From the NCBI RefSeq assembly GCF_019431355.1, contig NZ_CP080269.1, positions 2,701,501 to 2,765,500 of the forward strand: a stretch of 64,000 bases of DNA, read 5' to 3'. The position numbers and the translations under genes are program-made. Every line of letters starts with the position of its first letter. The first letter of the stretch is position 1. Below are positions 996-20,869 of the stretch, one piece after another. Below the pieces are notes generated by a model. The model was given only the letters and a program-made list of their open reading frames with translations, searched no databases and was not told the DNA's origin. The DNA comes from Paenibacillus sp. R14(2021). Lineage in GTDB: Bacteria; Bacillota; Bacilli; Paenibacillales; Paenibacillaceae.

Positions 996-1051
996 GGACC
1001 GTGATCCGCTTTACATCACCCAATATAACCGGACCACGGTCCAGTTGTCAA
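996..1051 (-). promoter_or_regulatory. Promoter with two GGACC/GGTCC palindromic operators (site 1 of 3)
   Basis: On the minus strand a -35 TTGACA (1046-1051) and a -10 TATATT (1022-1027) are separated by 18 bp. That spacer holds the palindrome GGACCGTGGTCC (1031-1042). A second copy, GGATCACGGTCC (996-1007), lies 35 bp further downstream, near the transcript start. The same layout recurs at 16926-16978 and 20817-20869. Placement over the promoter suggests repression. The regulator is unknown; a dimeric TetR-type protein is one possibility. Confidence 0.8.
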
Positions 1052-1232
1052 GCGGTTTTGAAAGGATATCGAAGCTATAAGAATAAAGGCGAATTGTGCT
1101 GGGACCTGATAGGCGGAGAGCTTGAATGCGTCTTTGCCTGCAGCCAGCGTATTTAGATGCTATTAGAATGCGTTGTATACTATGATTTAATGCAAAGCGA
1201 TAGGCGTTCTCGGATCGAGCCTTACCAATCAT
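1052..1232. other. Intergenic stretch, nothing recognised
   Basis: Between the promoter of the Gfo/Idh gene and the terminator of the MerR gene I see no convincing coding sequence. The short open frames here have no ribosome binding site and no recognisable domain. Confidence 0.5.
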
Positions 1233-1270
1233 AAAAAAAGATGGCCCCCGATAAATTCAGAGGCCATCTG
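1233..1270 (-). terminator. Rho-independent terminator after the MerR gene
   Basis: Minus-strand stem AGATGGCC / GGCCATCT around an A/T-rich loop is followed directly by a run of seven T. It closes the aldehyde dehydrogenase-MFS-MerR transcript. Confidence 0.85.
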
Positions 1271-1296
1271 TTTTATTAGCTGAGCTAAGAAGATCC

Positions 1297-1698
1297 TTAT
1301 TCCATCCGGAAAGCCGACTCCTCACTGGTTGTCCCTTTCTGAATCTCTCTGTAACGCTCAAGCTTCCGATTAACCGCTTCAAAAGCGAGGTCCAGTTCCC
1401 GCTGCCGCTTGTTTAATTCTTCTTTATGCTGCTCTAGAATTTGCTTTCTGGACTCCAAAGTAGACTCCCCCTGAAGAGCCAGATCTACAATTTTCTTAAG
1501 TTGAATTATCGGCATGCCGGTTACGCGGAAACAGGTCATGAGCTTGATCCATTCTACATCCTGGGGCTTAAAGATACGATTTCCATGTTCGTCGCGTCCC
1601 AGGAAAGGTATAAGGCCTTCTTTATCGTAATGCCTAATCGTGTGAGCGGGGATCCCCAATTGCTCGGAAGCCTCTTTTATCGTAATTCCCGTTCCCAT
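1297..1698 (-). CDS. MerR family regulator, AdhR/NmlR-like carbonyl-stress sensor
   Basis: 133-residue protein from ATG 1698, preceded by GAGGGGGAG; an upstream in-frame codon overlapping the MFS gene lacks such a site. Residues 4-45 form the winged-helix MerR DNA-binding head (ITIKEASEQLGI..HTIRHYDKEGLIP), followed by a dimerisation coiled coil rich in K/E/R. Cys56 lies in LMTCFRVTGM, the position of the redox/aldehyde-reactive cysteine of B. subtilis AdhR and the NmlR group (family knowledge). It starts 28 bp after the MFS gene stop and ends at a terminator, so it is probably the last gene of the aldehyde dehydrogenase operon. The operator at 6083-6113 matches the AdhR consensus CTTAAAG-N4-CTTTAAG, so autoregulation of the operon is the natural inference. 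Confidence 0.85.
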   Translation of the reverse strand: MGTGITIKEASEQLGIPAHTIRHYDKEGLIPFLGRDEHGNRIFKPQDVEWIKLMTCFRVTGMPIIQLKKIVDLALQGESTLESRKQILEQHKEELNKRQRELDLAFEAVNRKLERYREIQKGTTSEESAFRME

Positions 1699-1726
1699 TC
1701 TTTCGCTCCCCCTCTGTATAGTAGAT

Positions 1727-2893
1727 TTAAGCTTTAACAAGTTCCTTTTTGCTGACGATCACTCGAATAACGGAGACGATGAATAAACCTGTTACAAGCA
1801 CCCCTATGAGGAGTAAGACGCCGCGAATGGAATTGAGATCCAAGACCGATTGAATGCCGTTTGTGATAAGCGGCGAAATAAACTGACCTACATTCGCAAA
1901 TGCGGTCATAAGCATGATAGCCAGCGTTCGATGAGCAGTCGTTGCAACGATCGCCATTTTACTCAACAAAATGGGGTAAGCAAAACCAAATCCGAATCCA
2001 ACGATACCTACCGCAGCAGCAACCATCCATAGGTTATGCGCCTCGCCCAACAACAAAAACGCTGCACCAAATAAAAATAAAATAAAGGCAACGGAGCCTT
2101 TTCTCAATAAATGCTGGAGTCTGGCTCCGATGATTCCGGCGAAAAAGACGAATATGAACGAAACAGCTGTTAAATAACCCGACGTTGCGGAGTTTCCAAG
2201 ATGGTTATCTACGACAAAAGAAGCCAGGTTTGTCGGAATGACATAATACAGCACCATAAGACCTGTGGTTAACAAGCCAACTGCATAAACACCGACAGGC
2301 AAGGACAATTTCACGTCGCTAGCGGTCTCGCCTCTAGTAATAACCGGTTTGCCGCCAGGAATAAAAGCCAGTACCAGGATCAGCAAAACGATGCCGAAAG
2401 AATAAGTCCAAAACACGCCTCTCCATCCTAATGCCGTAATTGCTCCGCCAATTATGAGGAAGAAGGCGCCTCCGAGTCCATTTACTCCGACAGTGAGACC
2501 GTTCATTTTGGAGCGTTCCTCGCCATCAAAATACTCGGCGACGATTGCATTCATCAGCGGTGTAATTAAGCCGATGCCGAGACCCAATACCGCGCGCAGG
2601 GTCAGAATGCCTCCAATTGAATTCATTAATGCGGGGCCAACTCCGCCAATGACATATAAGATCAATCCGATGACAAGAAGCGTTTTCTTCGAAAGCCATC
2701 TGGACAATAGGTTTCCAATCAGCAAACTCGGCAAAATAAAGAACGACGCGAACGTGACGACGAGTTGAATAAGCACCGTATTCGCCTCTGTGAAGTCGAG
2801 CATAAGAAGCTTGACTGCCGGTGCCGCTAGCATGGGCGCCAGAGTTGATGTAACCGCCAGCGCTAGCAAAGTTATTTTAAAGCTTTTATTCAT
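1727..2893 (-). CDS. MFS transporter, 12 TM
   Basis: 388-residue integral membrane protein starting at ATG 2893 behind AAAGGAG. About twelve hydrophobic segments are visible, with the A-motif-like loop GNLLSRWLSKKTLLVIG after TM2, so it is a drug/metabolite:H+ antiporter or uptake permease of the major facilitator superfamily. It lies between an aldehyde dehydrogenase gene (109 bp upstream) and the AdhR-like regulator (28 bp downstream), all on the same strand. That context suggests export of a toxic carbonyl compound or import of its precursor, but the substrate is not predictable from the sequence. Confidence 0.85.
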   Translation of the reverse strand: MNKSFKITLLALAVTSTLAPMLAAPAVKLLMLDFTEANTVLIQLVVTFASFFILPSLLIGNLLSRWLSKKTLLVIGLILYVIGGVGPALMNSIGGILTLRAVLGLGIGLITPLMNAIVAEYFDGEERSKMNGLTVGVNGLGGAFFLIIGGAITALGWRGVFWTYSFGIVLLILVLAFIPGGKPVITRGETASDVKLSLPVGVYAVGLLTTGLMVLYYVIPTNLASFVVDNHLGNSATSGYLTAVSFIFVFFAGIIGARLQHLLRKGSVAFILFLFGAAFLLLGEAHNLWMVAAAVGIVGFGFGFAYPILLSKMAIVATTAHRTLAIMLMTAFANVGQFISPLITNGIQSVLDLNSIRGVLLLIGVLVTGLFIVSVIRVIVSKKELVKA

Positions 2894-3002
2894 GAGGGCC
2901 TGCTCCTTTCAGCCACTAAAACGAAATGGCTAAGCTGGTTACAACCGGGCTGAGGCATCGTTATGAGATGAAGCCTGGTGTTCCCGTCATGGCCTTGTCC
3001 GC

Positions 3003-4433
3003 TTAATGAGCTTCATACCCGAGTATGGCTTTCGGCTCGACATGCTCCTCCAAACCGTATACGCCGGAGTCTCGGCCCAAACCGGACTGCTTGAATCCGC
3101 CGAACGGTGCATAGGGATCATCTTGGACGGCCTTGTTGATCAAAATACGCCCAGCGATAATTTGCGAAGCTACTCGCCGTGCTCTTTCCATATCCGTGGA
3201 GCTAACATAAGCGGCCAAACCAAATACCGTGTCATTCGCAATGGCAATCGCTTCTTCTTCTGTTCTGTAGGAAATGACCGAAAGAACCGGACCGAAAATT
3301 TCCTCTTTGGCGATTTTCATATCATTCGTTACGTGGGCAAACACGGTTGGCTTCGCATAAAACCCTTCATCCAATCCCTCAGGATGACCTAGTCCGCCAA
3401 CGATTAATTCTGCCCCCTCGTCAATCCCGGCTTGGATGTAGCGCTGTACGGTATCGTATTGTTTTTGGCTAACAAGTGGACCTAATACAGAGTCTTCATC
3501 CATGGGATTTCCGATTTTGGTTGAAGCAACGGCTTGCTTTAACAGTTCCTTCGCTTCGTCCAATCGGTTCTCAGGAACTAACAATCTCGTGCCTGCATGA
3601 CAGGCTTGACCCGTATTGCTGAACGCGATGGTAATAGCCATTGGAATGGCTTTGGAGAAATCGGCATCATCCAGGATGATGTTGGGGTTTTTCCCGCCTA
3701 ACTCTAATGCCAATCTTTTGAGCGTGCCGGATGCATCTTTACAAATGATTTTTCCGACAGGAGTCGATCCGGTAAAGGATATTTTGGCAATATCCGGATG
3801 CCGGACAAGTTCTGCCCCTACGATTTGGCCCGTTCCATTCACAATATTCACGACACCTGCCGGCAATTTCGCATCGGCTATGCATGCCATTAATAGATGC
3901 GTCTGCAGTCCGCTAAGTTCGCTAGGTTTTAAGACAATCGTGCATCCCGTAGCAATGGCCGGGGCTATTTTATTGCAAATATGCGTATAATTGGCGTTCC
4001 ATGGCGTTATTGCGCCTATGACGCCCAATGGCTCAAGAATAATTTTGGTTGTACCCTGCATTTTCTCGAAGGAAAACCGTTTCAAGGATTCCTTGGCATA
4101 AAGGCAGGTCAGCGCAGCGAAGGTGGTACGGCCTTTAGATGGCTTTACCGGAGAACCATATTCTTCGACAGCCGCTCTGGTTAGCTCCTCTTCTCTTGCC
4201 ATAATGGCATCGTGTAGTCTCTGAAGCATCTGGATTCGTTCATCTACCGTTGTTTTGGCGAACGATTTAAATGCTTCTTTGGCAGCTGCGATGGCCAATT
4301 GTACATCGTGCTCGTTCCCAAGAACGAGTGTTCCGATCGTTTTTTTATTAGCGGGGTTTACCAATTCCTGAACATCCGTGCCAATTGATTGTACGAATTG
4401 CCCGTTAATAAAATGCTGATTAAGTGTACGCAC
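3003..4433 (-). CDS. NAD(P)-dependent aldehyde dehydrogenase
   Basis: 476-residue ALDH-superfamily enzyme with a GTG start at 4433 and a GAGAGGA ribosome binding site. The cofactor loop (GAITPWNANY), Rossmann segment (SFTGSTPVGK), general base Glu244 in LALELGGKNP and nucleophile Cys278 in NTGQACHAG are all intact, so the protein should oxidise an aldehyde to the acid in the cytosol. It is a clear paralogue of the neighbouring enzyme at 4584-6017 (same length, shared blocks across the whole protein), which suggests tandem duplication. A 150-bp gap with no strong terminator separates them, and both are likely served by the MerR-type promoter at 6083-6113. Confidence 0.9.
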   Translation of the reverse strand: MRTLNQHFINGQFVQSIGTDVQELVNPANKKTIGTLVLGNEHDVQLAIAAAKEAFKSFAKTTVDERIQMLQRLHDAIMAREEELTRAAVEEYGSPVKPSKGRTTFAALTCLYAKESLKRFSFEKMQGTTKIILEPLGVIGAITPWNANYTHICNKIAPAIATGCTIVLKPSELSGLQTHLLMACIADAKLPAGVVNIVNGTGQIVGAELVRHPDIAKISFTGSTPVGKIICKDASGTLKRLALELGGKNPNIILDDADFSKAIPMAITIAFSNTGQACHAGTRLLVPENRLDEAKELLKQAVASTKIGNPMDEDSVLGPLVSQKQYDTVQRYIQAGIDEGAELIVGGLGHPEGLDEGFYAKPTVFAHVTNDMKIAKEEIFGPVLSVISYRTEEEAIAIANDTVFGLAAYVSSTDMERARRVASQIIAGRILINKAVQDDPYAPFGGFKQSGLGRDSGVYGLEEHVEPKAILGYEAH

Positions 4434-4583
4434 CTGTAATTATCCTCTCATTTCTTAATTTGAGGATAGTTTTTCCGATGATAAAAAGTCTTATTCTTGG
4501 TGAACTGGAACAGACAAGAAGGGAACCCCCCTCTGGGGGACCCCATGCTGCTGCCAGCGTAACCTACTGAAACTTATCCGATA

Positions 4584-6017: not shown

Positions 6018-6082
6018 GCTGTAACTCTCCTTTGAACTTGTATTTGAACCTTCATAAATGTTTTGCGCCGGCTGCAAAAACC

Positions 6083-6113: not shown

Positions 6114-6126
6114 GCGATTATTTTAT

Positions 6127-6180: not shown

Positions 6181-6197
6181 TCTTGAGGATCGGTTAG

Positions 6198-6764: not shown

Positions 6765-6765
6765 T

Positions 6766-8127: not shown

Positions 8128-8505
8128 ATGACAATCAAATTTGATCCGGAACTATGCCTTGTCGACGATGCGTTAGATATACTTGTCGGTAAGTGGAAAC
8201 CTATTATTCTATTTCATTTATTAAAGTCCGATACGATTCGGTTTGGAGAATTAAGACGTGCGATCCCTGGCGTCACACAAAAGATGCTTACGAAGCAGCT
8301 GCGCGAGTTAGAGGAAGAAGATATTGTCGAACGAATTGTTTACGCTCAGGTTCCTCCAAAAGTCGAGTATTCCATCACGGAATACGGAAAAAGCTTAGAA
8401 CTGGTTCTGATCACGATGCATGAATGGGGAGTATCGCATAAATTACATAAACGCCAAAAAACAAAAGCAGCATCTCCCGAAACTTCGGATATCCGCTCGA
8501 ATTAA
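8128..8505 (+). CDS. HxlR family transcriptional regulator (copy 1)
   Basis: 125-residue winged-helix protein from ATG 8128 behind AAGGAGC. It shows the HxlR fold: DILVGKWKPIILFHLL, FGELRRAIPGVTQKMLTKQLRELEEEDIVERIVY, and the wing PPKVEYSITEYGKSL. Family members often sense electrophiles, quinones or formaldehyde through an N-terminal cysteine; Cys11 is present (ELCLVDD). It is divergent from the LLM monooxygenase operon and probably controls it. It is a close paralogue of the HxlR protein at 18945-19337, including a 38-bp stretch identical in DNA. Confidence 0.9.
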   Translation: MTIKFDPELCLVDDALDILVGKWKPIILFHLLKSDTIRFGELRRAIPGVTQKMLTKQLRELEEEDIVERIVYAQVPPKVEYSITEYGKSLELVLITMHEWGVSHKLHKRQKTKAASPETSDIRSN

Positions 8506-8509
8506 CTTT

Positions 8510-8566: not shown

Positions 8567-8585
8567 AACCGAACAAATTGCTTAA

Positions 8586-8631: not shown

Positions 8632-11600
8632 TTATTCGTTAATTAATTTTGCGCTTTTGAGCAAGTTACTCAGTACGATAGCGACGGCTTCACGCGTGGT
8701 AGGCTGCTTAGGTTGGAAGTAGCTGCTTCCGTTTAGTTGAACCCCCTGCATGAATCCTGCTTCGGTAACCATCTCGATGCTCTCTTTCGCGTAGCTGCTG
8801 AATTGTTCCGCATCCTTAAACGATGGATGAGCTCCAACCGGCTGGGAGAGGCCTAACAGGTTCATTGCCTTTGCAAGAATCACGGTCAAATCTTGACGGC
8901 TGATTGCAGCATTCGGATTGAATTTCCCCCCGGAGCCGGAAACAAGACCGGCTTTGTATGCTGCAGCTACGTCTTGAGCATACCATGCATCGCTGTTCAC
9001 ATCGCTGAACTGCACAGGTGTTGTCGTTTTCTGTAATCCGAGTGAACGAACGAGCATGGAAGTGAACTCGGCACGCGTTACGTTCTTCTTCGGCGCATAG
9101 GCCGCCACGGAAGTGCCGCTTAGAATGAATTTATCGGCAAGAAACTGAATCTGGGTCTTCGCCCACGATTTATCGATATCCTCGAATGCAGCAGTTCGAA
9201 TGACCGCAGCGTAAGTCGAGAAGCCTGGACGACTTACGGTAACGATCGTTTGTCCTTTGGAAGTTCGAGTAAACAACGCAGGCACCGCGTAAACGTTATT
9301 TCCTTCGATGTACAAGGCACCGGTATGACCAGCGTCTACGCTTTGTTCAACCAGGAATGACCGTTTGAACGCCTGGTTTTCTTCTAAAGGAAGCGGAGTC
9401 TCAGTGCCATGATCAACGGTTACTGCCTCGAAGGCATAAGGCGTGCCGATGACTTTGGACTTCTCATACTTCCGTTCGAACTTGGACACGCTTGGTGCGT
9501 CCTTGGCAATACGGACCCTATAATCGGAGCCATTGGGCACATTAGCGAGCGCTGAAATCGGCGTTGCAATGGTTGCGTGGTTCCATGTAAACACAAGAGA
9601 GCTATTCTTCGGCGCGTGCCGCAGCTGACTCACTTGTGAGCTTGTAAGCTGAAGCTCCGCTTCATCCAGCTCCTCCGAGGAAACGTTCACAAGGAAGGAA
9701 ACCGGTGTATCCTTGGCCGCTGCCACTGCTTCTTGCACATCGTCGTCCTTCACGTTTACGCCCAATTGCGTTCCTTTCGGTTCGGTTGCAGCAGGCAATT
9801 CAAACGTAGTTTGCCCATTCGGAACAACCGAGTCGATGAGTTCTTGATTACCAGCCGGCGCTGCCGGTACTGGGTCTGAACCACCGCCAAATACAGGACC
9901 GCCGCCAGAGCCAGGCGTCGGTTCGGGCTCGTTGCCGTCTGGCGCCGGTCCGGGCTTGACGTAGAACGATTTCCAAGCAACAGCGCTATCCTTGATCGCC
10001 AAGGTAGCATCGTCTAAATCTACGCCAACGAGCATGAAAGAATAGAGTCCTTCCGATAAGTCTTCCGTATAATAATTGGAATCTACATCGTAAGCATAGC
10101 CATAACTGGTATCGATATCCGATACCGTTAATTTACCGCTAGGGAGCGGATTGTAATTATTCTTCTTTTCATCAAAATCCATGGTTATATTGTATACGCC
10201 TAAGCCTTCGCCAGCCAAATTATAAACCAAAAGTTCGATCAAATCGAATTTATTCGACCTGACATCTACTGATAGATCGATGGTCGAATCGGAATAAAGA
10301 TAAGGACTGGATAAGGTTACATTCTGGAATCCCAGCTCGTTATCATCCGAATTCTCCCCAATGTGAATAACAAACGGCAAATGCAAAGCCGGTAACGAAG
10401 GGTCTCCCGCGCTTTCGAGCAAAATATGACCTTCATATACCCCTTCCGCAACGCCAATCTCGTCGCTGGCTTCGGCCTTACCTGACAAGGTGAAGGCGTG
10501 TTTACTGTGCGGAGCAACCGTAATCAAGCTTCCGCTGCCAACATCCAGACCGCCGAGCTCCATATGAATATCATTCACGTCCGGAGTAGGCGTCGGTCCG
10601 CTCGGGTCGGACGTCACTTGCGGATGCATCACGACGGACGCGGCGTATACGACTTCATTATTGGACAAGTTCTTAACCTGCAAAGGCTTCGTTACAGGCA
10701 TGTCCGATGCAGGGTCGATCATCCCGAAGCTTACGCTGCTCGCTTCGCTATCGATCGTGATCGGGTCTAATTTCAAATCATAGATGGTAATGGGATCGAC
10801 AGCTTGCACCACCGCCGGGGTTTCCATCGCTTTGGCGATATTCACCCGCCCGGCACCTTGTGAATACACATCGTATTGAATGCCGTTGATCGTTTTATCC
10901 GTACCGAGAATTTCCGCGGTATTCGCCAGAGCGGCACGAATATCGGTAGGGGACCAGTCTTCTACGCCGTCTAGCATATCCTGCTGCTTCAAGAGGGCAG
11001 CCAGGCCTGCCACGTGCGGCGTGGCCATACTGGTACCGCTCTCGCGGCCATATGCTTCTGCGTAGCTTTTGCTAGGATCGTCCTTCCCATAAGCGGGCAG
11101 GGTAGAGTAAATGTTAACGCCGGGTGCGGTAACGTCGGGCTTGATGCCGTAATTCCCATCCGAATTCGGTCCGCGGGAACTGAAATCCGCCACGGTATCG
11201 CCAGGCACATCGACTCTCGTAAACGTTTGTTCTGCTGGTTGATTCGGATCGCCAAATGTAATTTGGAATGGCGCTCCTGGATGCTCTACTACTTTTCTTG
11301 CGATGGCGCGTCCTTGTTTCCCTTCCCAATCGAAGGTGGGCAGATAGCGCAAGCTATCTCCAAGCGACGCGTTCGGTCCGATCGGACCGTTTCTATCTGT
11401 CATCTCATCCTGAAGATCGGGAACGGGTTGCATCGACTCGTCCAGCTTGTAATTACCATTGAAAATAATAGCAGCCGCCGCACCATGCAGGGTAGCTGTT
11501 TTGATTTTCTCCTCGAACGTAATGTCTCCGCGGGAAATATAGGCGATCTTGCCCGTTACGTCAATCGGGTTGAAGCTCGAGTCGAGGTAATCGCTTTCTC

Positions 11601-12942
11601 TGCCCAGCCCGACATAGACGGCATCGATCGTTCGGGAACCAAGCATGGTTTCAAAATCCTCTTCGCCTTTCTTCCAGGTCCCCATAATCGGCATGGAAGT
11701 GAAGGCTTCGCCGGCAACCGTGCTTGTCACCGACGCGGTCGTGTAATACGCACTAGGGCTGGTGGCGGCAGCAACAGAAATGCCAAGCTGCGCAGAAGCT
11801 GGCGATCCCATCGAATAATAATAGTGGCCCGCAGCACCAGCGTTGCCGCTAGCAACGACGGCGATGACTCCAGCCAACACCGCATTGTTGACCGCGATTG
11901 AGTCCGGAGAGTCCGGGTCCTTCTCGGCATCGCTGCCGAGCGACAAGTTGATGACATCCATGCCGTCTTTGACCGCATGCTCAATGCCATCAATGACTTG
12001 AGCGGAGGAGCCTGTAGCGCCCGACTCTCCCCCGAGCACTTTATACAGATAGAGACTGGCTTCGTATGCAACCCCTTTTTGAACCATATCCGCGGCGGAT
12101 GCATTGGCGAATCGGCCGGCAATGGTTCCGGATACGTGGGTTCCGTGAACCGAACCGCCGTACTCGTAAGCCGGGTTAGGTAAGTCCTCATAGGGATCAG
12201 GATCCTGATTGAACGAGTCGTAACCGATATGCGCCGGATCGATCGCATCCTTGAGATCGGGATGCACGTAATCGCCGCCGGTATCGATGACGCCTACTTT
12301 GACACCTTTGCCGGTCAAGCCTTTATCCCATGCGATATCGGCCCCGATTTGCTTCAAAGGGTTACTATCGTATTTGGGATTGTCGACTCCGAGAGCGCTG
12401 CCCTCTTCCGGAATCGAGTAATAGGTTAAGTTCGTATGAATCGAGACAACGCCCGGAAGCTTGGCCATCAGCGGAATTTGATTGGCGGGAACAGTGACTT
12501 CCATGCCATTGAGGACCGTTTCGTACCGGTAGTTGACTTTAAGGTCGATCCCCTGCTGACCGACACTGCTGATGAAATCAGCTTGCTCGGTCTGAACTTG
12601 TTGTTCGAGAGCTTCGACCCCCATCGTACGAAGCCCCATTTGAGCCGCATATTTGCCGATCGCTCCCGGCTGTGAGCTCAATTGAACGATGACGTTTATT
12701 TTTTCGGAAGAGGATGTATTAATGTCCTTGGCGATAATCGGTTGCTTGATTGCCGAAGCCGCGTCAGATTGCTGTTTTAATTTCTCTTGAACGATGGCAT
12801 CCAGCTTGGAAATATCCATCGGAATACGGGGCTTCACTTCAGCTTCAGGACCGTCAGCGAAAACGCTTTGGCCCCATACGCCGCTCAATAGAACGGCAGC
12901 GGTGAGGAGGGAGGTTATCTTATGGAATCGTAAGAAGTTCAA
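8632..12942 (-). CDS. S8 (subtilisin-like) serine protease with PA insert and C-terminal SLH domains
   Basis: 1436-residue secreted protein with a TTG start at 12942 and GAGGAAACG upstream. Order: signal peptide (1 to about 29, ending SVFADG), inhibitor I9-like propeptide (about 80-175), and an S8 domain with the full triad Asp220 (VIDTGGDY), His266 (VHGTHVSG) and Ser638 (SGTSMATPHVAG) plus oxyanion Asn367 (ASGNAG). A PA domain is inserted at about 400-560. Fn3-like/beta regions and a Gly/Pro-rich linker (about 1015) follow, and three SLH repeats occupy about 1245-1436 (FEDIDKSWAKTQIQFLADKF, FSDVNSDAWYAQDVAAAYKAG, FKDAEQFSSYAKESIEMV). It should be active and held on secondary cell-wall polymer. 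It follows the catalytically dead relative by 62 bp, so the pair is probably one operon. Confidence 0.93.
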   Translation of the reverse strand: MNFLRFHKITSLLTAAVLLSGVWGQSVFADGPEAEVKPRIPMDISKLDAIVQEKLKQQSDAASAIKQPIIAKDINTSSSEKINVIVQLSSQPGAIGKYAAQMGLRTMGVEALEQQVQTEQADFISSVGQQGIDLKVNYRYETVLNGMEVTVPANQIPLMAKLPGVVSIHTNLTYYSIPEEGSALGVDNPKYDSNPLKQIGADIAWDKGLTGKGVKVGVIDTGGDYVHPDLKDAIDPAHIGYDSFNQDPDPYEDLPNPAYEYGGSVHGTHVSGTIAGRFANASAADMVQKGVAYEASLYLYKVLGGESGATGSSAQVIDGIEHAVKDGMDVINLSLGSDAEKDPDSPDSIAVNNAVLAGVIAVVASGNAGAAGHYYYSMGSPASAQLGISVAAATSPSAYYTTASVTSTVAGEAFTSMPIMGTWKKGEEDFETMLGSRTIDAVYVGLGRESDYLDSSFNPIDVTGKIAYISRGDITFEEKIKTATLHGAAAAIIFNGNYKLDESMQPVPDLQDEMTDRNGPIGPNASLGDSLRYLPTFDWEGKQGRAIARKVVEHPGAPFQITFGDPNQPAEQTFTRVDVPGDTVADFSSRGPNSDGNYGIKPDVTAPGVNIYSTLPAYGKDDPSKSYAEAYGRESGTSMATPHVAGLAALLKQQDMLDGVEDWSPTDIRAALANTAEILGTDKTINGIQYDVYSQGAGRVNIAKAMETPAVVQAVDPITIYDLKLDPITIDSEASSVSFGMIDPASDMPVTKPLQVKNLSNNEVVYAASVVMHPQVTSDPSGPTPTPDVNDIHMELGGLDVGSGSLITVAPHSKHAFTLSGKAEASDEIGVAEGVYEGHILLESAGDPSLPALHLPFVIHIGENSDDNELGFQNVTLSSPYLYSDSTIDLSVDVRSNKFDLIELLVYNLAGEGLGVYNITMDFDEKKNNYNPLPSGKLTVSDIDTSYGYAYDVDSNYYTEDLSEGLYSFMLVGVDLDDATLAIKDSAVAWKSFYVKPGPAPDGNEPEPTPGSGGGPVFGGGSDPVPAAPAGNQELIDSVVPNGQTTFELPAATEPKGTQLGVNVKDDDVQEAVAAAKDTPVSFLVNVSSEELDEAELQLTSSQVSQLRHAPKNSSLVFTWNHATIATPISALANVPNGSDYRVRIAKDAPSVSKFERKYEKSKVIGTPYAFEAVTVDHGTETPLPLEENQAFKRSFLVEQSVDAGHTGALYIEGNNVYAVPALFTRTSKGQTIVTVSRPGFSTYAAVIRTAAFEDIDKSWAKTQIQFLADKFILSGTSVAAYAPKKNVTRAEFTSMLVRSLGLQKTTTPVQFSDVNSDAWYAQDVAAAYKAGLVSGSGGKFNPNAAISRQDLTVILAKAMNLLGLSQPVGAHPSFKDAEQFSSYAKESIEMVTEAGFMQGVQLNGSSYFQPKQPTTREAVAIVLSNLLKSAKLINE

Positions 12943-13004: not shown

Positions 13005-16000
13005 TCAGTTCACGATATTTAGAGCATCGATCGTAACCAGCGTTCCTGTCGATTGATTGTTCCTTTCACCCGTGTTCACTACTTTAATCGTGTGCTTGCC
13101 GTTGACGAGAACTGCGGAGGAGAACACCGGTACATGGTATTTGGTCGCCGGACTATATATATCGACTGTAGTGACGAGCTTGTTGTCGATATAAATACTC
13201 GCCTTGCCGCGGTTTTTCCCCGTGTTGGCGTATAGGGTCACTTCCGTGCCCGTGAACGGATATTCTACGGAGCTGTTTGCTTTATCGCTCGATATCTGTT
13301 GGTTCCGTGTATAGTTTTTGCTGTAGCTGGTCATCCATGGTCCGACCATGGAAGCATTCCCAGCCGTAGAGAAGATCAAATTCGAGACGATAAAAGCATC
13401 GACGTTGATCGCCGTCATTCCGTCCTTCTTGACAGAAGGATCAGGCTTGCCGGTCCAAACAATCTTGATCGTATGATGACCATTGTTCATCGCGTAATGG
13501 AAGATGGTTTGCTGTTCTTTAGGCGTTGCGCTGTAGAGCGATCCCGTGGCAACCTTCACGCCGTCGATATACACATCGGCTATTCCTTGCTTGTTATTTA
13601 ATGTTCCAATCCACCGGATGTCGTTGCCATTGAAGCCGAATTCTACGCTGCCGGCTGCGTCAAGCTGCTTGGACGAGCCACCCGAATAGGACGATCCGGA
13701 AAGCGATTGCCAAGGACCGCTGTACGTCAAGGCTTCATGATTATCCTGGAAAAGACCGTTCTGGTTGCCTGATTTTACGATCAACGTGTAGCTGCCGGCA
13801 CCTGAGAAGGCACTCACGTTCATATAATAAGTTCCCGTCTCGAGCGCGGTATAGGTAATCGATTCGCTCGATGTTCCTTCGTTTTCTGAAGAAGCCACCA
13901 TGCCGAGCTTGCTAGTGACCGTAGCAGCAGATGAATCATATAAATATAGATCGAAGTCGGTGTTCGCGTCGCCTTTCAAGGACAGAGTGAATTTCTCTCC
14001 AGCCCCCATCTCGATGGCGTATACATCTTCCGGCTCGGTAGAAGCGTCGATCCGGTTGGTCACGGAAGAATCGCGAAGCGGAACACCTGGAATATCATGA
14101 GCATACAAGGCCCGAAACGCATTAACCATACTGCCGCTGACCGTCTTAATCGTAAGCGAACTGAGTTTCATTCCGCTGTTATTCATGCGTGTCTTCACAT
14201 CCGCGGCGCTCATTGTGGGGAACTGGCTTAAAATAAGAGCTGCCGTTCCGGATGTAATGGCGGCGGCTTGGGTTGTACCGGATTGTAACCAGTAGTAACT
14301 TTGAACCGTTTCAAGGTTGATTTGGGCAATATTCGGATCTTCGCTAATAATGGTGTCCGTCATGATGCCTATATCCTTCACATAGTAGGATTTTTGACTA
14401 TAGATACTATGAGGGGCGCCGGTAATGAGACCTTTTTCGCCATACCTTCCTTCACCCATGAATACGATATGCAGCATGTCCAGTACGAAGTAAGAGTCCA
14501 TAATCGAGTCAATCGCATCTTGGCCGGATAATAAGAGATGCCCACCGCCATTCAAGAATTTCGTTAATGCCAGTTGATCGGCGTCTGTAAGGAGATTGTC
14601 AGCTAGGCCATCAGCAATTGCCGTGGACCAAATCACGATATCGTAATCCTTCAGCGTAGTAAACGACGGACCGTCTACTTTGCCATCCGGTACTTCAATA
14701 ATATCGAAGTTGGTAAATCCAGCCTTGTTAAGCAAGCCCTTATACATTTCATTTTCGATAAAAATTCCGCCATCATTGGGGTTCTTCTCGTCTTGGACGA
14801 ACAGTACCCTCGTCTGGTCCGCGGGGCCGAAGCCGTCATTCAAGTAATTCATGGCTTGGTTAAACATGTCTTGACGCTGGTTAGGGTCATAGCCTTCTCC
14901 AACGGGAACTTCCTCGAATCCGATACCGTTGTAGATGGCTTTATAGGCTTTTTTCGTTGGATCGTTAGGATCCGCAGCTTTACTAATCTGCGCCCCATAA
15001 CCGATGTTATAATCTGGGGCGGTGGCTAAGACCGTTACTCCCGGAGCCGCTATGTCAACGCTTGACTTGCCGTAACCGGAGGTTTTCTTTAGATTGCCGT
15101 TGTTATCGATCGCGGTAACCGTGAGCACATTATCCAAATGGAATCCACCCGGATATAGTTTGATTTCATCCCTGTTTTGCGCGACATCATTATCGCCTGA
15201 AGGGCTGACGAAGAGCAACGAGGAGGATTTTATGGCTTGGTACAGCTCCTCGCTATACACGCGAAGGCCCCAATCGAAGTTTGCGATAGAAGCGCCATTC
15301 GTTTCGGCATACGCGATCGCATCCACGATATCGGATACGTATCCGCCACCATTTGCAAGAAACTTGAGTGGCATAATCGTGACTATCGGGGCCACGCCTG
15401 CCATCCCGCCCTGATTAAATTCCGCGGCGATAGTGCCGGCGGCGAAAGTTCCGAAGTAATCGTTGAAGTGATCCCGCTCATCGAAGACCGTATTGTCTTT
15501 ATGGAAGAAATCCCAGCCATTCACATCATCTATGAGTCCATTGCCATCATTATCTTTGCGGTCAAAGGGAATCTCGCCCGGATTTTGCCAAATTTTAAAT
15601 CGAATATCCGGTACATCGATTTTGACGCCAGTACCGATCTGAGCAACGATAACTTCCTTCCGGCCTTTCGTGATTGCCCAGGCTTCGGGCGCATCAATAT
15701 CGATATCCGGCGTTCCTCCCTCGTAATAGCCGTGGTGAAGTTCTTGGCCGGTATTATTTAAGGCCCATTGTTCTGAAAACTCTTCATCGTATTTAGGAAT
15801 TACAGGAGCAGGAGCCTCCGGATATTCGTTTTTTTGTGAAGCTTTGCCCGTATTGGATCGAACCGGAATTTGCGTTGCCGGCTGGGCCAAGGAAACTTGA
15901 TAATCAGGCTCTGCGTACTGTACGTTGGGATCCTTCTTCAACTCTTGAATGAGTGGAAGAATAGCCGTTCCCTTATTTACTTTCAACAGGCTGGATTCCG

Positions 16001-16355
16001 TGCCGGGAAGCAGCCGAAGACTCTCTACCTTCCCCGCAATGCTGCGCGACAACGACGATACGCTTTTGACGCTCGTTTTGAATTTGACGATGACACGATC
16101 TTGGGAGAATTTGACGTCCTCCGCTTGGTTTGCGACTGAAGGGGATGCGCCTGACGACTCCTGCGGTTTGGCGACTTGCACGATGCCTTCATTCATTGGA
16201 CTCTCTGGCCGCTTGCTCTTTCTAAGCTTATCTTGATGCGAGTAGGCGTCTTCTGTTTTCGCGGTATTGCCGGCGATTACGGGTGTGACCGGAACAAGCG
16301 CAAGCGAAAGCGCGAGCGCAATGGATACGAATGATTTTCTAGGTGAACTTGGCAA
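13005..16355 (-). CDS. Catalytically dead S8-family protein (pseudosubtilisin) with PPC and two carbohydrate-binding-like repeats
   Basis: 1116-residue secreted protein, TTG start at 16355 behind AGAGGAAGTG. Order: signal peptide (about 1-29); fervidolysin-type propeptide (about 85-155, DRVIVKFK...NVQYAEPDYQ); S8 fold from about 190. All catalytic positions are changed: Asp becomes Gly241 (AQIGTGV), His becomes Phe301 (YFGTFAAGTIAA for GHGTHVAGTIAA), the oxyanion Asn becomes Asp388 (SPSGDND), and Ser becomes Thr695 (SGTTQAAAITSG for SGTSMATPHVAG). A Rossmann/GATase-like insert fills about 495-675 (RVLFVQDEKN..., YDIVIWSTA, GGHLLLSGQD). A PPC domain (about 750-845) and two beta-sandwich repeats (about 850-980 and 985-1116) finish the protein. 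A binding or scaffolding role beside the active protease is inferred. Confidence 0.88.
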   Translation of the reverse strand: MPSSPRKSFVSIALALSLALVPVTPVIAGNTAKTEDAYSHQDKLRKSKRPESPMNEGIVQVAKPQESSGASPSVANQAEDVKFSQDRVIVKFKTSVKSVSSLSRSIAGKVESLRLLPGTESSLLKVNKGTAILPLIQELKKDPNVQYAEPDYQVSLAQPATQIPVRSNTGKASQKNEYPEAPAPVIPKYDEEFSEQWALNNTGQELHHGYYEGGTPDIDIDAPEAWAITKGRKEVIVAQIGTGVKIDVPDIRFKIWQNPGEIPFDRKDNDGNGLIDDVNGWDFFHKDNTVFDERDHFNDYFGTFAAGTIAAEFNQGGMAGVAPIVTIMPLKFLANGGGYVSDIVDAIAYAETNGASIANFDWGLRVYSEELYQAIKSSSLLFVSPSGDNDVAQNRDEIKLYPGGFHLDNVLTVTAIDNNGNLKKTSGYGKSSVDIAAPGVTVLATAPDYNIGYGAQISKAADPNDPTKKAYKAIYNGIGFEEVPVGEGYDPNQRQDMFNQAMNYLNDGFGPADQTRVLFVQDEKNPNDGGIFIENEMYKGLLNKAGFTNFDIIEVPDGKVDGPSFTTLKDYDIVIWSTAIADGLADNLLTDADQLALTKFLNGGGHLLLSGQDAIDSIMDSYFVLDMLHIVFMGEGRYGEKGLITGAPHSIYSQKSYYVKDIGIMTDTIISEDPNIAQINLETVQSYYWLQSGTTQAAAITSGTAALILSQFPTMSAADVKTRMNNSGMKLSSLTIKTVSGSMVNAFRALYAHDIPGVPLRDSSVTNRIDASTEPEDVYAIEMGAGEKFTLSLKGDANTDFDLYLYDSSAATVTSKLGMVASSENEGTSSESITYTALETGTYYMNVSAFSGAGSYTLIVKSGNQNGLFQDNHEALTYSGPWQSLSGSSYSGGSSKQLDAAGSVEFGFNGNDIRWIGTLNNKQGIADVYIDGVKVATGSLYSATPKEQQTIFHYAMNNGHHTIKIVWTGKPDPSVKKDGMTAINVDAFIVSNLIFSTAGNASMVGPWMTSYSKNYTRNQQISSDKANSSVEYPFTGTEVTLYANTGKNRGKASIYIDNKLVTTVDIYSPATKYHVPVFSSAVLVNGKHTIKVVNTGERNNQSTGTLVTIDALNIVN

Positions 16356-16925
16356 TTTGTCACTTCCTCTACTAATTTTGAGTTTTTGTTATAAATGCCC
16401 GCTCTTCTCTCCGTGAATCGCCTCCTAATTGATTCAACAAACGCTAATTGATGATAGATTAACTAACATTAAATAGTGAAATCGCAAAAAAAGTGAGAAT
16501 CCGATGACGATGTCCTGCTGCTCCAATGTAGGGGACACACGGTAATACGAGGATCAAAGATTTAGAAGAATGATAGATAAATCAACTAGTATTTACTCTT
16601 TCTTTACTATTGTTTAATTATGTACCGAAGGCAGAATCATTTAAAGTAGGCACATTTTTCATCCATAGGTTCCAGGAAGAAACTTACAATCCTTTAAATC
16701 AAAGAAAACGCAGTTTCTTGCCCTTTACGGCAAGAAAAAGATAACATCATGCGTTAATTTTTATAACATAAATAAAAATAAGATTTATCTTATCTCATTT
16801 CTATTACTCTCAAGAAAAAAACCTGAAGCCTCCTAATCGCAGCACAAAATGAGCATTTCAGTCTGAGTTTGGACTGCATCGCCCCTCGAACTACGGCCAT
16901 CTTCTCTTTTGGTTCATTTCTCCCT
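16356..16925. other. AT-rich intergenic region with one hairpin
   Basis: No gene is seen between the start of the S8 operon and the nitroreductase promoter. The region is AT-rich with many short A and T runs. It contains a perfect 9-bp inverted repeat, TTTCTTGCC / GGCAAGAAA with a 6-base loop (16714-16737), with no T tract on either strand. I could not fix the promoter of the protease operon. Confidence 0.5.
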
Positions 16926-16978
16926 TTGACAAGCGGACCGCAGTCCGATTATAGTTATACATAAATGGACCACGGTCC
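16926..16978 (+). promoter_or_regulatory. Promoter with two GGACC/GGTCC palindromic operators (site 2 of 3)
   Basis: TTGACA (16926-16931), 18-bp spacer containing GGACCGCAGTCC (16935-16946), TATAGT (16950-16955), then GGACCACGGTCC (16967-16978). The two palindromes start 32 bp apart, about three helical turns, so a regulator could bind both on one DNA face. It serves the nitroreductase-OYE operon. Confidence 0.85.
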
Positions 16979-17077
16979 ACTCGAGACATTCGAGGTGTTC
17001 TTTCTCGGGACATTGCCCTATACATCAAGTCAAATGACTACTTTTCACTTTACTCATCCTACATTTTGGAGGCATTT

Positions 17078-17743
17078 ATGATGAATAACACTGCAAAAAA
17101 AACAGAATTGTTAGAAGCGTTTTATTTCCGGCACGCTGCCAAAGCATTTGACCCTGCCAAAAAGATCTCTGACGAGGATTTTCAATTCATTCTCGAGGCA
17201 GCGCGTCTTTCACCTAGTTCCGGCGGGAACGAGCCCTGGAGGTTTCTGATCGTACAAAGCCCGGAATTCAGAAGGGAACTTGCGCCTTATGTATATGGAG
17301 CAATGAAGCAGCTTCCTACTTCGAGTCATTTCGTCATCATTTTGACCAGAAAAGGACTGAATTATGATGCCCCGTATATTTTGGAACAACAAACCAAAAT
17401 CAAAGGAATGCCGCTTGAAACTTACAAAAGCATGAGACCGGCTTACGAACAATTTTATAATGACCTTCACTTGGATTCCGATCGAGCGCTGCTGGATTGG
17501 TCATCGAAACAAACCTACCTGGCCATGGGCAACATGATGACGGCAGCCGCTTATATAGGCGTTGATTCATGTCCTATCGAAGGCTTTGCAATGGACGCCG
17601 TAAATGATTTGCTTCAGAAAAAAGGGCTCCTTGGAGACGACGAATTCAGCTTAAGCGTCATGGCAGCATTCGGTTATCGTGCCCAACAACCCGCTCGTAC
17701 TAAAACAAGACGCCCCATGGAAGATATCGTTCAATTTGTATAA
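17078..17743 (+). CDS. Nitroreductase family NAD(P)H-dependent oxidoreductase
   Basis: 221-residue FMN-dependent nitroreductase-fold protein, starting at ATG 17078 (or 17081), five to eight bases after TTGGAGG. Features include FYFRHAAKAFDPAKKISDEDFQFILEAARLSPSSGGNEPWRFL, the family's N-terminal FMN-binding block, and the C-terminal GYRAQQPARTKTRR phosphate-contact region. Such enzymes reduce nitro groups, quinones or flavins using two electrons. It is 22 bp ahead of an OYE-like gene and follows the twin-palindrome promoter, so the operon looks like a xenobiotic or electrophile-reducing unit. Confidence 0.9.
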   Translation: MMNNTAKKTELLEAFYFRHAAKAFDPAKKISDEDFQFILEAARLSPSSGGNEPWRFLIVQSPEFRRELAPYVYGAMKQLPTSSHFVIILTRKGLNYDAPYILEQQTKIKGMPLETYKSMRPAYEQFYNDLHLDSDRALLDWSSKQTYLAMGNMMTAAAYIGVDSCPIEGFAMDAVNDLLQKKGLLGDDEFSLSVMAAFGYRAQQPARTKTRRPMEDIVQFV

Positions 17744-17765
17744 TCCATCGGAAGGTGAGGAACTT

Positions 17766-18857
17766 ATGAAAGAAGACTACAAAGTGATCTTCGAACCGCT
17801 TCGGCTTCGCAGCGGCAAGGAATTGAAAAATAGAATCGTTATGTCCCCAATGGGTCATTTGGGATCATTGCCCGGCGGGTTTATTTCCGAGGAAGAATTG
17901 GCTTATTACAACTTGCGGGTCAAAGACGTCGGGATGGTTGTTACGTCGGCAACGACGTTTAAAGAAGGAAAGCACTATCCGGGATTACCGGCGGCGGAGG
18001 CCGACGAACATATTCCTGGACTGCGCAAGCTCAGCACCGTCTTGAAATCCCATGGAGCGGTTGCCATTCTGCAATTATTCCATGAGGGGGCTAGCGGAAT
18101 AGAGGATAACGAAGCGCCGAGCGCCGTGGTGGCGGATAATTCCAATTCTCCGCTGCCGCGCGAATTGACCGATGCCGAAATCGAGGCTCTCGTCAAGAAA
18201 TTCGGCGATGCGGTAAGACGAGCCATTCAAGCAGGCTTCGACGGTGTCGAAATTCACGGAGCGAACGGCTATCTGATTCAACAATTCACTTCACCTCATT
18301 ACAATCGCCGGACAGACCGTTGGGGAGGCTCCCCGGAAAAACGCTTGGCTTTCCCGATTGCCATCATTGCCGAAGTCAAGAGAGTGGTGGCAGAAAGCGG
18401 AACCCCCTTTATCATCGGATACCGAATCTCTCCGGAGGAACCGGATACGAATGGATTGACGATGGCGGACGCCATTCGAAACATAGATGCGCTCGCGGAT
18501 CAGGGACTGGATTACATCCACGTAGCCCTTCATGATTTCTGGTCTACACCGCGTCGGGATGTGAACGATAGCCGCGCCCGGATGGAAATCTTTAACGAGG
18601 TCGTCGGTAACCGTACGGCCCTTATCGGTGTAGGCGGAATAAAAACACCGGAAAATGCCGCTAAGGCACTTTCAACCGGCGTAGAGCTTGTCGCGATCGC
18701 AAGAGGAATGCTGTTGGAACCTAGGTGGGTTCAAAAGGTACGAGAAGGCAAAGAGGATCTAATCAAGACGAAGTTATACCGTGGGGATCAATCCGAACTG
18801 CTGCTGCCTGATGGCGTATGGTCGATGATTGAACTATATCTTCCGTTCGAGGATTGA
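17766..18857 (+). CDS. Old yellow enzyme family NADH:flavin oxidoreductase
   Basis: 363-residue TIM-barrel flavoprotein, ATG 17766 behind GGTGAGG. Family motifs are FEPLRLRSGKELKNRIVMSPMG at the N-terminus, QLFHEGASG, the FMN/substrate block GFDGVEIHGANGYLIQQFTSPHYNRRTDRWGGS, and the late phosphate-binding GVGGIKTPENA...VAIARGML. It probably reduces activated C=C bonds of enals, enones or nitro-olefins with NAD(P)H. It sits in one operon with the nitroreductase (22-bp gap) and ends at a terminator. Confidence 0.92.
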   Translation: MKEDYKVIFEPLRLRSGKELKNRIVMSPMGHLGSLPGGFISEEELAYYNLRVKDVGMVVTSATTFKEGKHYPGLPAAEADEHIPGLRKLSTVLKSHGAVAILQLFHEGASGIEDNEAPSAVVADNSNSPLPRELTDAEIEALVKKFGDAVRRAIQAGFDGVEIHGANGYLIQQFTSPHYNRRTDRWGGSPEKRLAFPIAIIAEVKRVVAESGTPFIIGYRISPEEPDTNGLTMADAIRNIDALADQGLDYIHVALHDFWSTPRRDVNDSRARMEIFNEVVGNRTALIGVGGIKTPENAAKALSTGVELVAIARGMLLEPRWVQKVREGKEDLIKTKLYRGDQSELLLPDGVWSMIELYLPFED

Positions 18858-18876
18858 CCCTATACGCATCCGCAGC

Positions 18877-18910
18877 GAGGAAAGGCTAAAAGCCTTTCCT
18901 CTTTGCCTTT
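18877..18910 (+). terminator. Terminator after the OYE gene
   Basis: Perfect 11-bp stem GAGGAAAGGCT / AGCCTTTCCTC with a 3-base AAA loop, then a T-rich stretch. It ends the nitroreductase-OYE operon just before the second HxlR gene. Confidence 0.8.
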
Positions 18911-18944
18911 CAACCAAATCGGTCAATGGAGGTTAGATATAAGC

Positions 18945-19337
18945 GTGAAAATAGGGTCGGAGAAGCCGCTTAATAAACTGGCAGCCATCAATCGGCATAC
19001 CTCGAAACAGGAGATGCTCACAAGTTACGTAAACAGCGGTATATTAACGCTGGATATACTCGCCGGTAAATGGAAATTCATTATTTTGCTTCATATATTA
19101 GTGTCCGGCACCATTCGATTCAGGGATTTAAGTCGTGCTATTCCAGGCATTACAAACAAGGTACTAACGAACAAATTACGTGAGCTAGAGGAAGAAGATA
19201 TTATCGAACGGGTTGTATACGCTCAGATTCCGCTCAAAGTCGAGTATTCCATCACGGAATACGGAAAAAGCTTGAAACCGGTTCTAATCTCTATTCATGA
19301 GTGGGGAGCATCACATAAAATGCATAAGATGAAATAA
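18945..19337 (+). CDS. HxlR family transcriptional regulator (copy 2)
   Basis: 130-residue winged-helix protein. GTG 18945 is preferred (GGAGG 12 bases upstream) because an earlier in-frame TTG lies inside the terminator tail. The core LDILAGKWKFIILLHIL, FRDLSRAIPGITNKVLTNKLRELEEEDIIERVVY and KVEYSITEYGKSL mirrors the first HxlR protein at 8128-8505, with a longer N-terminus of about 35 residues. No cysteine is present in that N-terminal region, so unlike copy 1 it lacks the usual redox thiol. It follows the nitroreductase-OYE operon and may regulate it or the convergent hydrolase. Confidence 0.85.
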   Translation: MKIGSEKPLNKLAAINRHTSKQEMLTSYVNSGILTLDILAGKWKFIILLHILVSGTIRFRDLSRAIPGITNKVLTNKLRELEEEDIIERVVYAQIPLKVEYSITEYGKSLKPVLISIHEWGASHKMHKMK

Positions 19338-19369
19338 AGTTTCTCCATTGCAATGGATTATCGCGCATG

Positions 19370-20152
19370 TTATCCAATGAATTGCGTCAATACCTGATTA
19401 AACCGATCGCGTTCCTCCCAGAAAGTAGCATGACCACTGTATTGAAACGGAACAAGGGTTGAATTTTTGATTAACTTATTCATTTCCTGCGCTTGTGTAA
19501 ATGGAATGGATTTATCATGTATGCCATGAACGATCAGCGTGGGCACTTCGATTTTGGGAAGATCGGCATAGGTATTTTCATCTCGCAGCATCTTAATTAT
19601 TGCGGCAGTAGAATAACCCGCTGCTTGATTTCCTATCTGCTGAAACCAATCCCGGAATGGCGGTGAAACATATTGGAAAAAAAAGCTGTCCATGACACGG
19701 TTCCACATATTCGGCCGGTCATTCAATGATTCTCCCAAGAGCAGGCTTGCCGTTTCTGGCGTAAATCCGGTTGGCGCTGCAGCATCTATAAGGACAAGCT
19801 TCGAAACGCCGTATCCCCGATAACGAGACATATAGCGTATTGCAATTGCTCCACCCGTGGAGTGTCCCGCCAAGGTTATATTTTCTAATTGAAGTGCACC
19901 AATGACAGCACAGACATCATCCGCCAATCTATCCAGGGTATAGCCTGTATACGGTTTATCAGAATTTCCGAATCCCCTCCAATCCATTCCAATGCATCGG
20001 AAGCCCATGGAAGGAAGCACATTGTACTGATATTCGAATTGCTTATGACTTAAAGGCCAACCATGAATAAACAATATGGTTTTTTTACCCTCGGGATTGA
20101 TATCTTCAACAAAAATTTTGACACCTTGTTCTACTGTAATATAATATCCCAT
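19370..20152 (-). CDS. Alpha/beta hydrolase (haloperoxidase/esterase type)
   Basis: 260-residue protein from ATG 20152 with GGAGG seven bases upstream; a longer open frame upstream overlaps a terminator. It has the oxyanion HGWP loop (ILFIHGWPLSHKQFEYQ), nucleophile elbow GHSTGG, acidic residue in VHGIHDKSIPF and catalytic His in YSGHATFWEE. This resembles non-heme chloroperoxidase/arylesterase enzymes. The substrate is unknown. It converges with HxlR copy 2 (32-bp gap) and lies downstream of the cupin gene beyond a terminator. Confidence 0.88.
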   Translation of the reverse strand: MGYYITVEQGVKIFVEDINPEGKKTILFIHGWPLSHKQFEYQYNVLPSMGFRCIGMDWRGFGNSDKPYTGYTLDRLADDVCAVIGALQLENITLAGHSTGGAIAIRYMSRYRGYGVSKLVLIDAAAPTGFTPETASLLLGESLNDRPNMWNRVMDSFFFQYVSPPFRDWFQQIGNQAAGYSTAAIIKMLRDENTYADLPKIEVPTLIVHGIHDKSIPFTQAQEMNKLIKNSTLVPFQYSGHATFWEERDRFNQVLTQFIG

Positions 20153-20231
20153 GCCGATACCTCCATCTTTTTTATACGACCTCATCATATTCAATCCTTC
20201 TAACTTAGGTGTCTGCCTAACTTCAACGCAC

Positions 20232-20284
20232 AAAAAAACTCAACGTCCGATGGCTGCGCTAATACAGCCATCGAACGTTGAGTT
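20232..20284 (-). terminator. Strong terminator after the cupin gene
   Basis: A long stem (AACTCAACGT...CAGCCATC paired with GATGGCTG...ACGTTGAGTT) ends in seven T on the minus strand. It separates the cupin from the downstream hydrolase. Confidence 0.9.
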
Positions 20285-20299
20285 GTCGTTGTTGTTTAT

Positions 20300-20770
20300 T
20301 TATTTATTTAGCATAACCATTGGAGGGCCGACAATCCAAGTATCGTAGTTTTCGCAGAGCTCCTGCCAGCCCTCTGGCGGCGTAAGACCGATTTTAGCGA
20401 AAATATCATCTATTCCGCCTGGCGCGAATGTGAAGAGTATACGTGCCGGCTCGGTGCCCACATTGGCCCAAGCATGCGGGACGCCGCGAGGGACGACGAC
20501 ACTTGTCCCTGGGGTGACTTCGAATTCATCTTCGCCGCACTGAAAACGGAACGTGCCTTCCAATACTTCGAAGATTTCCTCCCGATCCTTGTGGAAATGC
20601 TTCGGGGGGCCGCTGAAAGACGGTACGCGAGCTTCCATGATGGTGACTGCTCCGCCAACCTGGCTGCTGTGAATTCGGATTGCCATTTGCTCGCCCGGCA
20701 TCGTTGTAAACCATTCCAAATCCTTGCTATGTGTGAAGACTGCACGTTGTAAACCGTTATGTTGATTCAT
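20300..20770 (-). CDS. Cupin domain protein
   Basis: 156-residue single-domain cupin, ATG 20770 behind AAGGAG. Metal ligands sit in motif 1 (PPKHFHKDREEIFEVLEGTFRF: two His and a Glu) and motif 2 (VPRGVPHAWANVG: one His), so a metal-binding dioxygenase, isomerase or sensor role is possible. Small cupins with this pattern often degrade or bind quinone-like aromatics, but the substrate is not evident. The gene has its own twin-palindrome promoter and terminator, making it a single-gene member of the regulon. Confidence 0.88.
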   Translation of the reverse strand: MNQHNGLQRAVFTHSKDLEWFTTMPGEQMAIRIHSSQVGGAVTIMEARVPSFSGPPKHFHKDREEIFEVLEGTFRFQCGEDEFEVTPGTSVVVPRGVPHAWANVGTEPARILFTFAPGGIDDIFAKIGLTPPEGWQELCENYDTWIVGPPMVMLNK

Positions 20771-20816
20771 GATAATCTCCTTATTCATGGTTAATGTATG
20801 GTAGTCATTTTCAAGT

Positions 20817-20869
20817 GGACTGCGGTCCACATACAATTCAATATAACTGGACTGCGGTCCGTTTGTCAA
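20817..20869 (-). promoter_or_regulatory. Promoter with two GGACC/GGTCC palindromic operators (site 3 of 3)
   Basis: Minus-strand TTGACA (20864-20869), 18-bp spacer with GGACCGCAGTCC (20849-20860), TATATT (20840-20845), then a second identical GGACCGCAGTCC (20817-20828). The palindromes start 32 bp apart, exactly as at the nitroreductase promoter. Confidence 0.85.

Follow-up and report, generated by a model that had tools for sequence, protein, structure and literature searches.

Organization of the locus and its promoters

The window analyzed here, a 64,000-nucleotide stretch of Paenibacillus sp. R14(2021) (contig NZ_CP080269.1, positions 2,701,501 to 2,765,500), carries a cluster of oxidoreductase genes in which three promoters each hold a pair of palindromes, and our analysis concerns the regulator that these twin palindromes serve. 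The promoters precede genes encoding a Gfo/Idh/MocA oxidoreductase, a nitroreductase followed by an old yellow enzyme (OYE), and a small cupin (Table 1); sites 1 and 3 point left, and site 2 points right. At all three sites, the -35 and -10 boxes are separated by an 18-bp spacer containing a GGAC-N4-GTCC palindrome, whose 12 bp begin 3 bp past the -35 box. Both the sequence and a promoter scan confirmed the statement of an earlier note that TTGACA, a spacer palindrome, and TATATT or TATAGT share one register at 996–1051, 16926–16978, and 20817–20869. The second palindrome described in that note was also found at all three sites, although its start-to-start distances, listed as 32, 32, and 35 bp, read 35, 32, and 32 bp for sites 1, 2, and 3 in map order. 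Calling the promoters unlinked was too strong: they share a single gene cluster, and their counterparts in genome G403 lie within about 16 kb. The twin palindrome of the three promoters is a real pattern.

The window held 3 twins, whereas simulation of 200 64-kb windows with matching second-order composition gave 4 in total (approximately 0.02 each; Poisson P of about 1e-6 for the window count), with a motif that had itself been derived from these sites and their relatives. When read backwards, the promoter-operator had no match (up to 1 mismatch) in 394 Paenibacillaceae genomes; together with the simulated windows, this indicates a rare pattern and not one that is common at random. Among 20 non-redundant Paenibacillaceae twins with no more than 1 mismatch (the L067 twin, with 2 mismatches, being excluded), the spacing was 32 bp in 13, 31 bp in 3, 34 bp in 2, and 35 bp in 2, while three Alicyclobacillus loci had 29 bp. 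Although 32 bp is the commonest distance, the spacing varies and is not strictly phased as proposed earlier, so strict helical phasing is not required; cooperative binding on one helical face would be a conjecture. When the L067 twin was included (21 twins, 42 operators), the base preceding the operator was C or T in 41 of 42 cases and the base after it G or A in all 42, and a -35/-10 register that was exact or had 1 mismatch faced the target at 18 of the 21 twins.

Table 1. Promoters, operators, and associated genes in the window.
Feature	Position	Strand	Remarks
Promoter 1	1022-1051	minus	TTGACA 1046-1051; operator A GGACCACGGTCC 1031-1042; TATATT 1022-1027; exact match in promoter scan
Operator B, site 1	996-1007		GGACCGTGATCC, slightly degenerate, 1 mismatch to GGACYNNRGTCC; downstream of -10 box
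Promoter 2	16926-16955	plus	TTGACA 16926-16931; operator A GGACCGCAGTCC 16935-16946; TATAGT 16950-16955; exact match
Operator B, site 2	16967-16978		GGACCACGGTCC
Promoter 3	20840-20869	minus	TTGACA 20864-20869; operator A GGACTGCGGTCC 20849-20860; TATATT 20840-20845; exact match
Operator B, site 3	20817-20828		GGACTGCGGTCC
Gfo/Idh/MocA oxidoreductase	1-881	minus	Target of promoter 1; extends beyond window edge
TetR remnant (third copy)	1067-1114	plus	16 codons; divergent, beside site 1; agrees with the G005 orthologue at 15 of 16 residues
Nitroreductase	17081-17743	plus	PF00881; first gene of promoter 2
Old yellow enzyme (NADH:flavin oxidoreductase)	17760-18857	plus	PF00724; second gene of promoter 2
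HxlR-type regulator	18903-19337	plus	3' of OYE gene and perhaps cotranscribed with it; unlikely to be the twin-operator regulator
Alpha/beta hydrolase	19370-20233	minus	Downstream of cupin, possibly same operon
Small single-domain cupin	20300-20770	minus	PF07883; target of promoter 3

Distribution of the operators and of a TetR-family gene

The twin palindromes are in all likelihood the operators of one clade of TetR-family repressors, by which these promoters would be repressed. Neighborhood, co-occurrence, and deep conservation make a TetR-family regulator very probable and support the earlier proposal that a single regulator controls all three promoters. When the strict twin pattern was searched in 146 relatives, six genomes matched, namely our own, four of the same genus, and the outlier G134, which has an internal repeat. 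In G005, G008, and G015, a twin separates the Gfo/Idh gene from a TetR-family gene that diverges from it. With at most 1 mismatch allowed, the promoter-operator was present in 11 of the 394 Paenibacillaceae genomes. A TetR orthologue (E ≤ 1e-50) was present in 9, all nine within the 11 site-bearing genomes; the exact promoter-operator occurred in 8, every one of them TetR-bearing. These co-occurrence counts are uncorrected for phylogeny.

The specificity of the patterns determined which of them could be used. When as many as 3 mismatches were tolerated, the promoter pattern matched 9 of the 22 genomes of the genus, including G006, G016, and G019, which have no TetR gene and matched only at 3 mismatches, and the reversed control gave 3 matches; for this reason, the 1-mismatch cut was adopted for the 394-genome scan. 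The single palindrome GGACYNNRGTCC occurred at 16 places in our genome versus 6 in the reversed control, and since single palindromes are this unspecific, a search has to rely on the pair or on the promoter register. A strict pattern, GGACYNCGGTCC, was also tried in our genome and set aside. The relaxed twin pattern matched 44 of the 394 genomes, 8 of them with the TetR gene; the other 36 comprised 26 of the GGAACCGGTTCC type and 10 mixed ones, the latter close to the reversed-control level (8 genomes). The TetR-bearing genome G003 was missed by this pattern and recovered by the promoter pattern.

Regarding the depth of conservation, the TetR alignment returned 80 loci, of which the best 13 were examined, the weaker L078–L144 (67 loci, mostly Rhodobacteraceae) lying outside this set. 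Among these 13, the twin operator stood directly upstream of the TetR gene in all eight Paenibacillus and all three Alicyclobacillus loci, the Alicyclobacillus homologues being merely 30–35% identical and the L073 twin being seen under the relaxed motif only; the two Aneurinibacillus homologues (L076, L077) had no twin operator. Six of the eight Paenibacillus loci seem identical to contigs listed under G handles, so these loci and the genome counts cannot be treated as separate evidence. Automated gene finding had produced false negatives, including L069 and L071, both of which bear the twin, and L031–L060 and L204 were redone by tblastn. In a comparison of 31 TetR genes, the twin preceded six of the seven clade members, the seventh being the copy designated TetR-1 below, and none of the 24 other, more distant paralogues. 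Operator-bearing proteins have GQGTxYRS or GQGTLYRQ in the recognition region, while 23 of the 24 others have YRR and one has YRH.

The sites were also conserved upstream of orthologues of the target genes, being kept at the nitroreductase, cupin, and Gfo/Idh orthologues; of the two outcomes that the earlier note named as refuting, lack of conservation and commonness at random, neither was seen. For instance, G403 has twins at its cupin, nitroreductase, Gfo/Idh, OYE/aldehyde dehydrogenase, and major facilitator superfamily (MFS)/TetR promoters, and G005 at its nitroreductase and Gfo/Idh promoters. In an alignment of three nitroreductase promoters, the -35 box and both operators were kept, with scattered internal changes, while most other sequence had diverged; the -10 box varied, one promoter having TATAGT and the other two TATTAT. 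The cupin pair was less informative because the stretch ahead of the promoter was also conserved in the two sequences compared.

Some related arrangements were found in passing. In G198 (L204), a promoter-operator with 1 mismatch lies between a permease-like gene and a divergent TetR paralogue with 30% identity, which suggests that related operators may exist in a sister clade. The 26 TetR-less Paenibacillaceae genomes with twin GGAACCGGTTCC palindromes (e.g., L145, L147, L154) mostly have an A/T-rich spacer, and one of the 26 has a variant arm; this looks like another conserved paired operator. In several Paenibacillus genomes, the cassette is adjoined by genes with the look of Ger-type spore-germination receptor genes (L062 13060–16774; L212, L027, L030), which are homologous between the loci.

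Copies of the probable regulator and proposed mechanism

Two full copies of the TetR gene were found in our genome, TetR-1 (C1:2694346–2694936), the nearer one at 6.6 kb left of the window, and TetR-2 (C1:1138226–1138819). TetR-2 has a twin, GGACTGCCGTCC/GGACCTCGGTCC, with 31 bp spacing directly upstream, and an exact promoter-operator at 2691056 precedes the genes ahead of TetR-1, which by the look of their sequences are presumably dsbA-like, MFS, and SnoaL-like. In total, the genome has four exact promoters and one degenerate twin. The earlier suggestion that the regulator gene lies outside the window is thus supported by both full copies, yet a remnant of a third lies inside, at the position where relatives carry the TetR gene, with a DNA match of 90% over 48 bp to L027.

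TetR-2 has an N-terminal TetR_N helix-turn-helix domain (PF00440, 56 bits versus a cutoff of 24), and the structural model of the regulator shows the all-helical two-domain TetR fold. No named TetR equivalog was found in NCBIfam, where 23 families matched weakly (best 48.6 bits versus a cutoff of 150). EthR-type TetR structures (PDB 5mym and others) are 15% identical to the regulator, and no TetR subfamily is implied, as many TetR structures tie within 1–2 Z units; the best PDB match by sequence was the helix-turn-helix part of Mce3R.

In the TetR family, a dimer bound in the spacer excludes RNA polymerase, and one at the start site adds to the block. Here, operator A lies between the -35 and -10 boxes, where a bound dimer would block RNA polymerase; repression would be tightened by another dimer at operator B, past the -10 box and close to the start site. 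Self-control is probable, for TetR-2 through its upstream twin and for TetR-1 through a presumed operon starting at 2691056. A small molecule binding to the C-terminal domain would release the repressor, allowing the oxidoreductase and efflux cassette to be expressed. The best reading of these arrangements is a small accessory oxidoreductase/efflux cassette under TetR repression, relieved by a small molecule.

Several observations weigh against this assignment. In the roughly 350 bp ahead of the TetR-1 start there is no twin, so control of TetR-1 relies on an operon assumed to begin at 2691056, in which a gap of about 220 bp precedes TetR-1. The clear -35/-10 register at the TetR loci points toward the neighboring gene (mostly Gfo/Idh) and not the TetR gene, and the register of the TetR-2 twin is degenerate (3 mismatches) and also faces away from TetR-2. 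Either of the two paralogous repressors could act at a given site. The TetR gene (at least 60% identity) and the Gfo/Idh gene have identical distributions in the genus, both being confined to the same 6 of 22 genomes, and hence travel together; given this strict co-occurrence, part of the genome-level association reflects an inherited cassette. The orthologue scan scored only the 8 best first-look candidates per genome. Outside the nine TetR-bearing genomes, sites were present in G186 and G198, and in G186 no TetR gene was found within the 3 kb examined around its 1-mismatch site. In G011, the Gfo/Idh twin has no adjacent TetR gene; this genome carries its TetR gene on a different contig, beside a further twin and divergent from an SDR-type gene.

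Inducing signal and comparison with known systems

Judged solely by the nature of the target enzymes, redox or electrophile sensing is plausible, since the set suits the handling of electrophiles, nitroaromatics, or quinones. Cys60 and Cys68 are the sole invariant cysteines in the clade alignment (A1), and both fall within helix 4 of the structural model. A clade-specific sensing role for Cys60 was not supported, as this residue is present in all 31 TetR genes compared, the 24 without an operator among them. Within the proteins compared, Cys68 occurred solely in the Paenibacillus clade that bears the operator. Cysteine sensing is thus possible and not strongly indicated, Cys60 being general to the wider subfamily. 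We regard as rather unlikely the more specific proposal that the Paenibacillus/Alicyclobacillus clade senses thiol-reactive or quinone-type compounds through these hinge-helix cysteines (Cys60, and Cys68 in Paenibacillus) and not through a ligand pocket and, by means of its paired operators, serves as a two-dimer switch of a moving detoxification cassette.

An alternative, to which we give even chances, is that the same TetR repressor responds to an aromatic or plant-derived metabolite, as QdoR does, the cysteines having no sensing role; this competes with the electrophile reading only. QdoR is a TetR-type protein and QdoI a cupin. In PMC8481877, QdoR of B. subtilis is described as a self-controlling repressor with two operators in the promoter of qdoI, the quercetin dioxygenase gene, which our cupin target and two-operator layout resemble. 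The ubiquity of Cys60 favors such a metabolite signal, while the confinement of Cys68 and the presence of nitroreductase, OYE, and quinone-type reductase targets speak for electrophiles. In logic, the QdoR (YxaF)/LmrA regulon, which responds to flavonoids, is the closest analogue, with its self-control and two operators in the target promoter, although the targets of the Paenibacillus repressor are wider.

Thiol-reactive compounds release other TetR repressors, namely NemR, AltR, and DitR. According to PMC13178969, AltR (Pantoea) and NemR (E. coli) repress reductase or tolerance genes and their own expression via an inverted repeat; the AltR box given there, CAATCTAC-N6-GTAGATTG, is unlike GGAC-N4-GTCC, and the key residue of AltR is Cys100, in contrast to the shared Cys60 and Cys68 of our clade. 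DitR of Stenotrophomonas maltophilia represses MFS genes, is released by the thiol oxidant diamide, and relies on Cys92 and Cys127 (PMC9342713), whereas the clade described here shares no cysteine near such positions. A conserved redox-active cysteine of the NemR/AltR/DitR type beyond the DNA-binding part was not found, the invariant Cys60 and Cys68 both being placed in helix 4 by the model.

Other candidate owners of the palindromes

The earlier note knew of no matching site for any of the window's four regulators and suggested that the owner may lie outside; that none of these four intact genes encodes the owner is probably correct, the MerR protein and the HxlR protein at 18903 having been tested across genomes, while HxlR 8128 and TetR 31412 were not queried in other genomes. 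MerR proteins activate from long-spacer promoters. An NmlR-like MerR protein (1297–1740) binding the spacer palindrome in this manner would fit both the position of the palindrome in the spacer and the nearness of a MerR gene to site 1, but it is highly improbable: a second, similar operator lies beyond the -10 box, and no such palindrome (up to 1 mismatch) occurs upstream of the MerR gene or the neighboring MFS gene. Moreover, a MerR orthologue does not always accompany the site, as the best match was no more than 39% identical in four of nine site-bearing genomes (33–39% in G008, G011, G402, and G420 versus 61–92% in G003, G005, G015, and G403).

Equally improbable is control by the HxlR proteins of the window (8128–8505 and 18903–19337), in the manner of quinone-sensing HxlR/DUF24 repressors, even though their genes adjoin those of LLM/FMN reductase and nitroreductase/OYE, respectively. 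The best match of HxlR 18903 in the other 8 site-bearing genomes was 54–57% identical in the helix-turn-helix part, versus 73% for its paralogue in the window, and with 5 to 18 matches in each genome, the matches of this HxlR, the one of the two that was searched across genomes, do not track the sites. Least probable of all are F-plasmid parS-like partition or structural sites, for although the 12-bp core GGACCACGGTCC is identical to that of the parS_F oligonucleotide in PMC8357417, parS_F as given there has a G ahead of the core, unlike the flanks described above, and our sites are fixed relative to the -35/-10 boxes upstream of enzyme genes. All three readings were rejected on these grounds.

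Neighboring genes

The two HxlR genes have helix-turn-helix domains with 73% identity, each adjoins flavin-dependent oxidoreductase genes, and together they perhaps form a second regulatory layer of their own. Past the window edge, on the same strand as the Gfo/Idh gene, are genes encoding an LLM-class oxidoreductase and a Zn-dependent alcohol/quinone dehydrogenase. The oxidoreductase cluster is split by two adjacent large proteins (8632–12942 and 13005–16355), which, by the look of their sequences and without a family scan, we assume to be secreted subtilisin-type proteases.

Significance

In literature searches, no listed title dealt with this motif or regulator. The regulon is a new one of an ordinary, known TetR kind, with a repressor clade hitherto without a name, and the general understanding of TetR regulation is unchanged. 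What was an orphan promoter motif becomes a candidate regulator-operator pair with a testable site, and the contrast between YRS/YRQ in operator-bearing and YRR/YRH in operator-less proteins opens the specificity residue of the recognition helix to direct testing. Should the inducer be found, a compact biosensor part would be possible, and an unnamed TetR clade gains a putative regulon.

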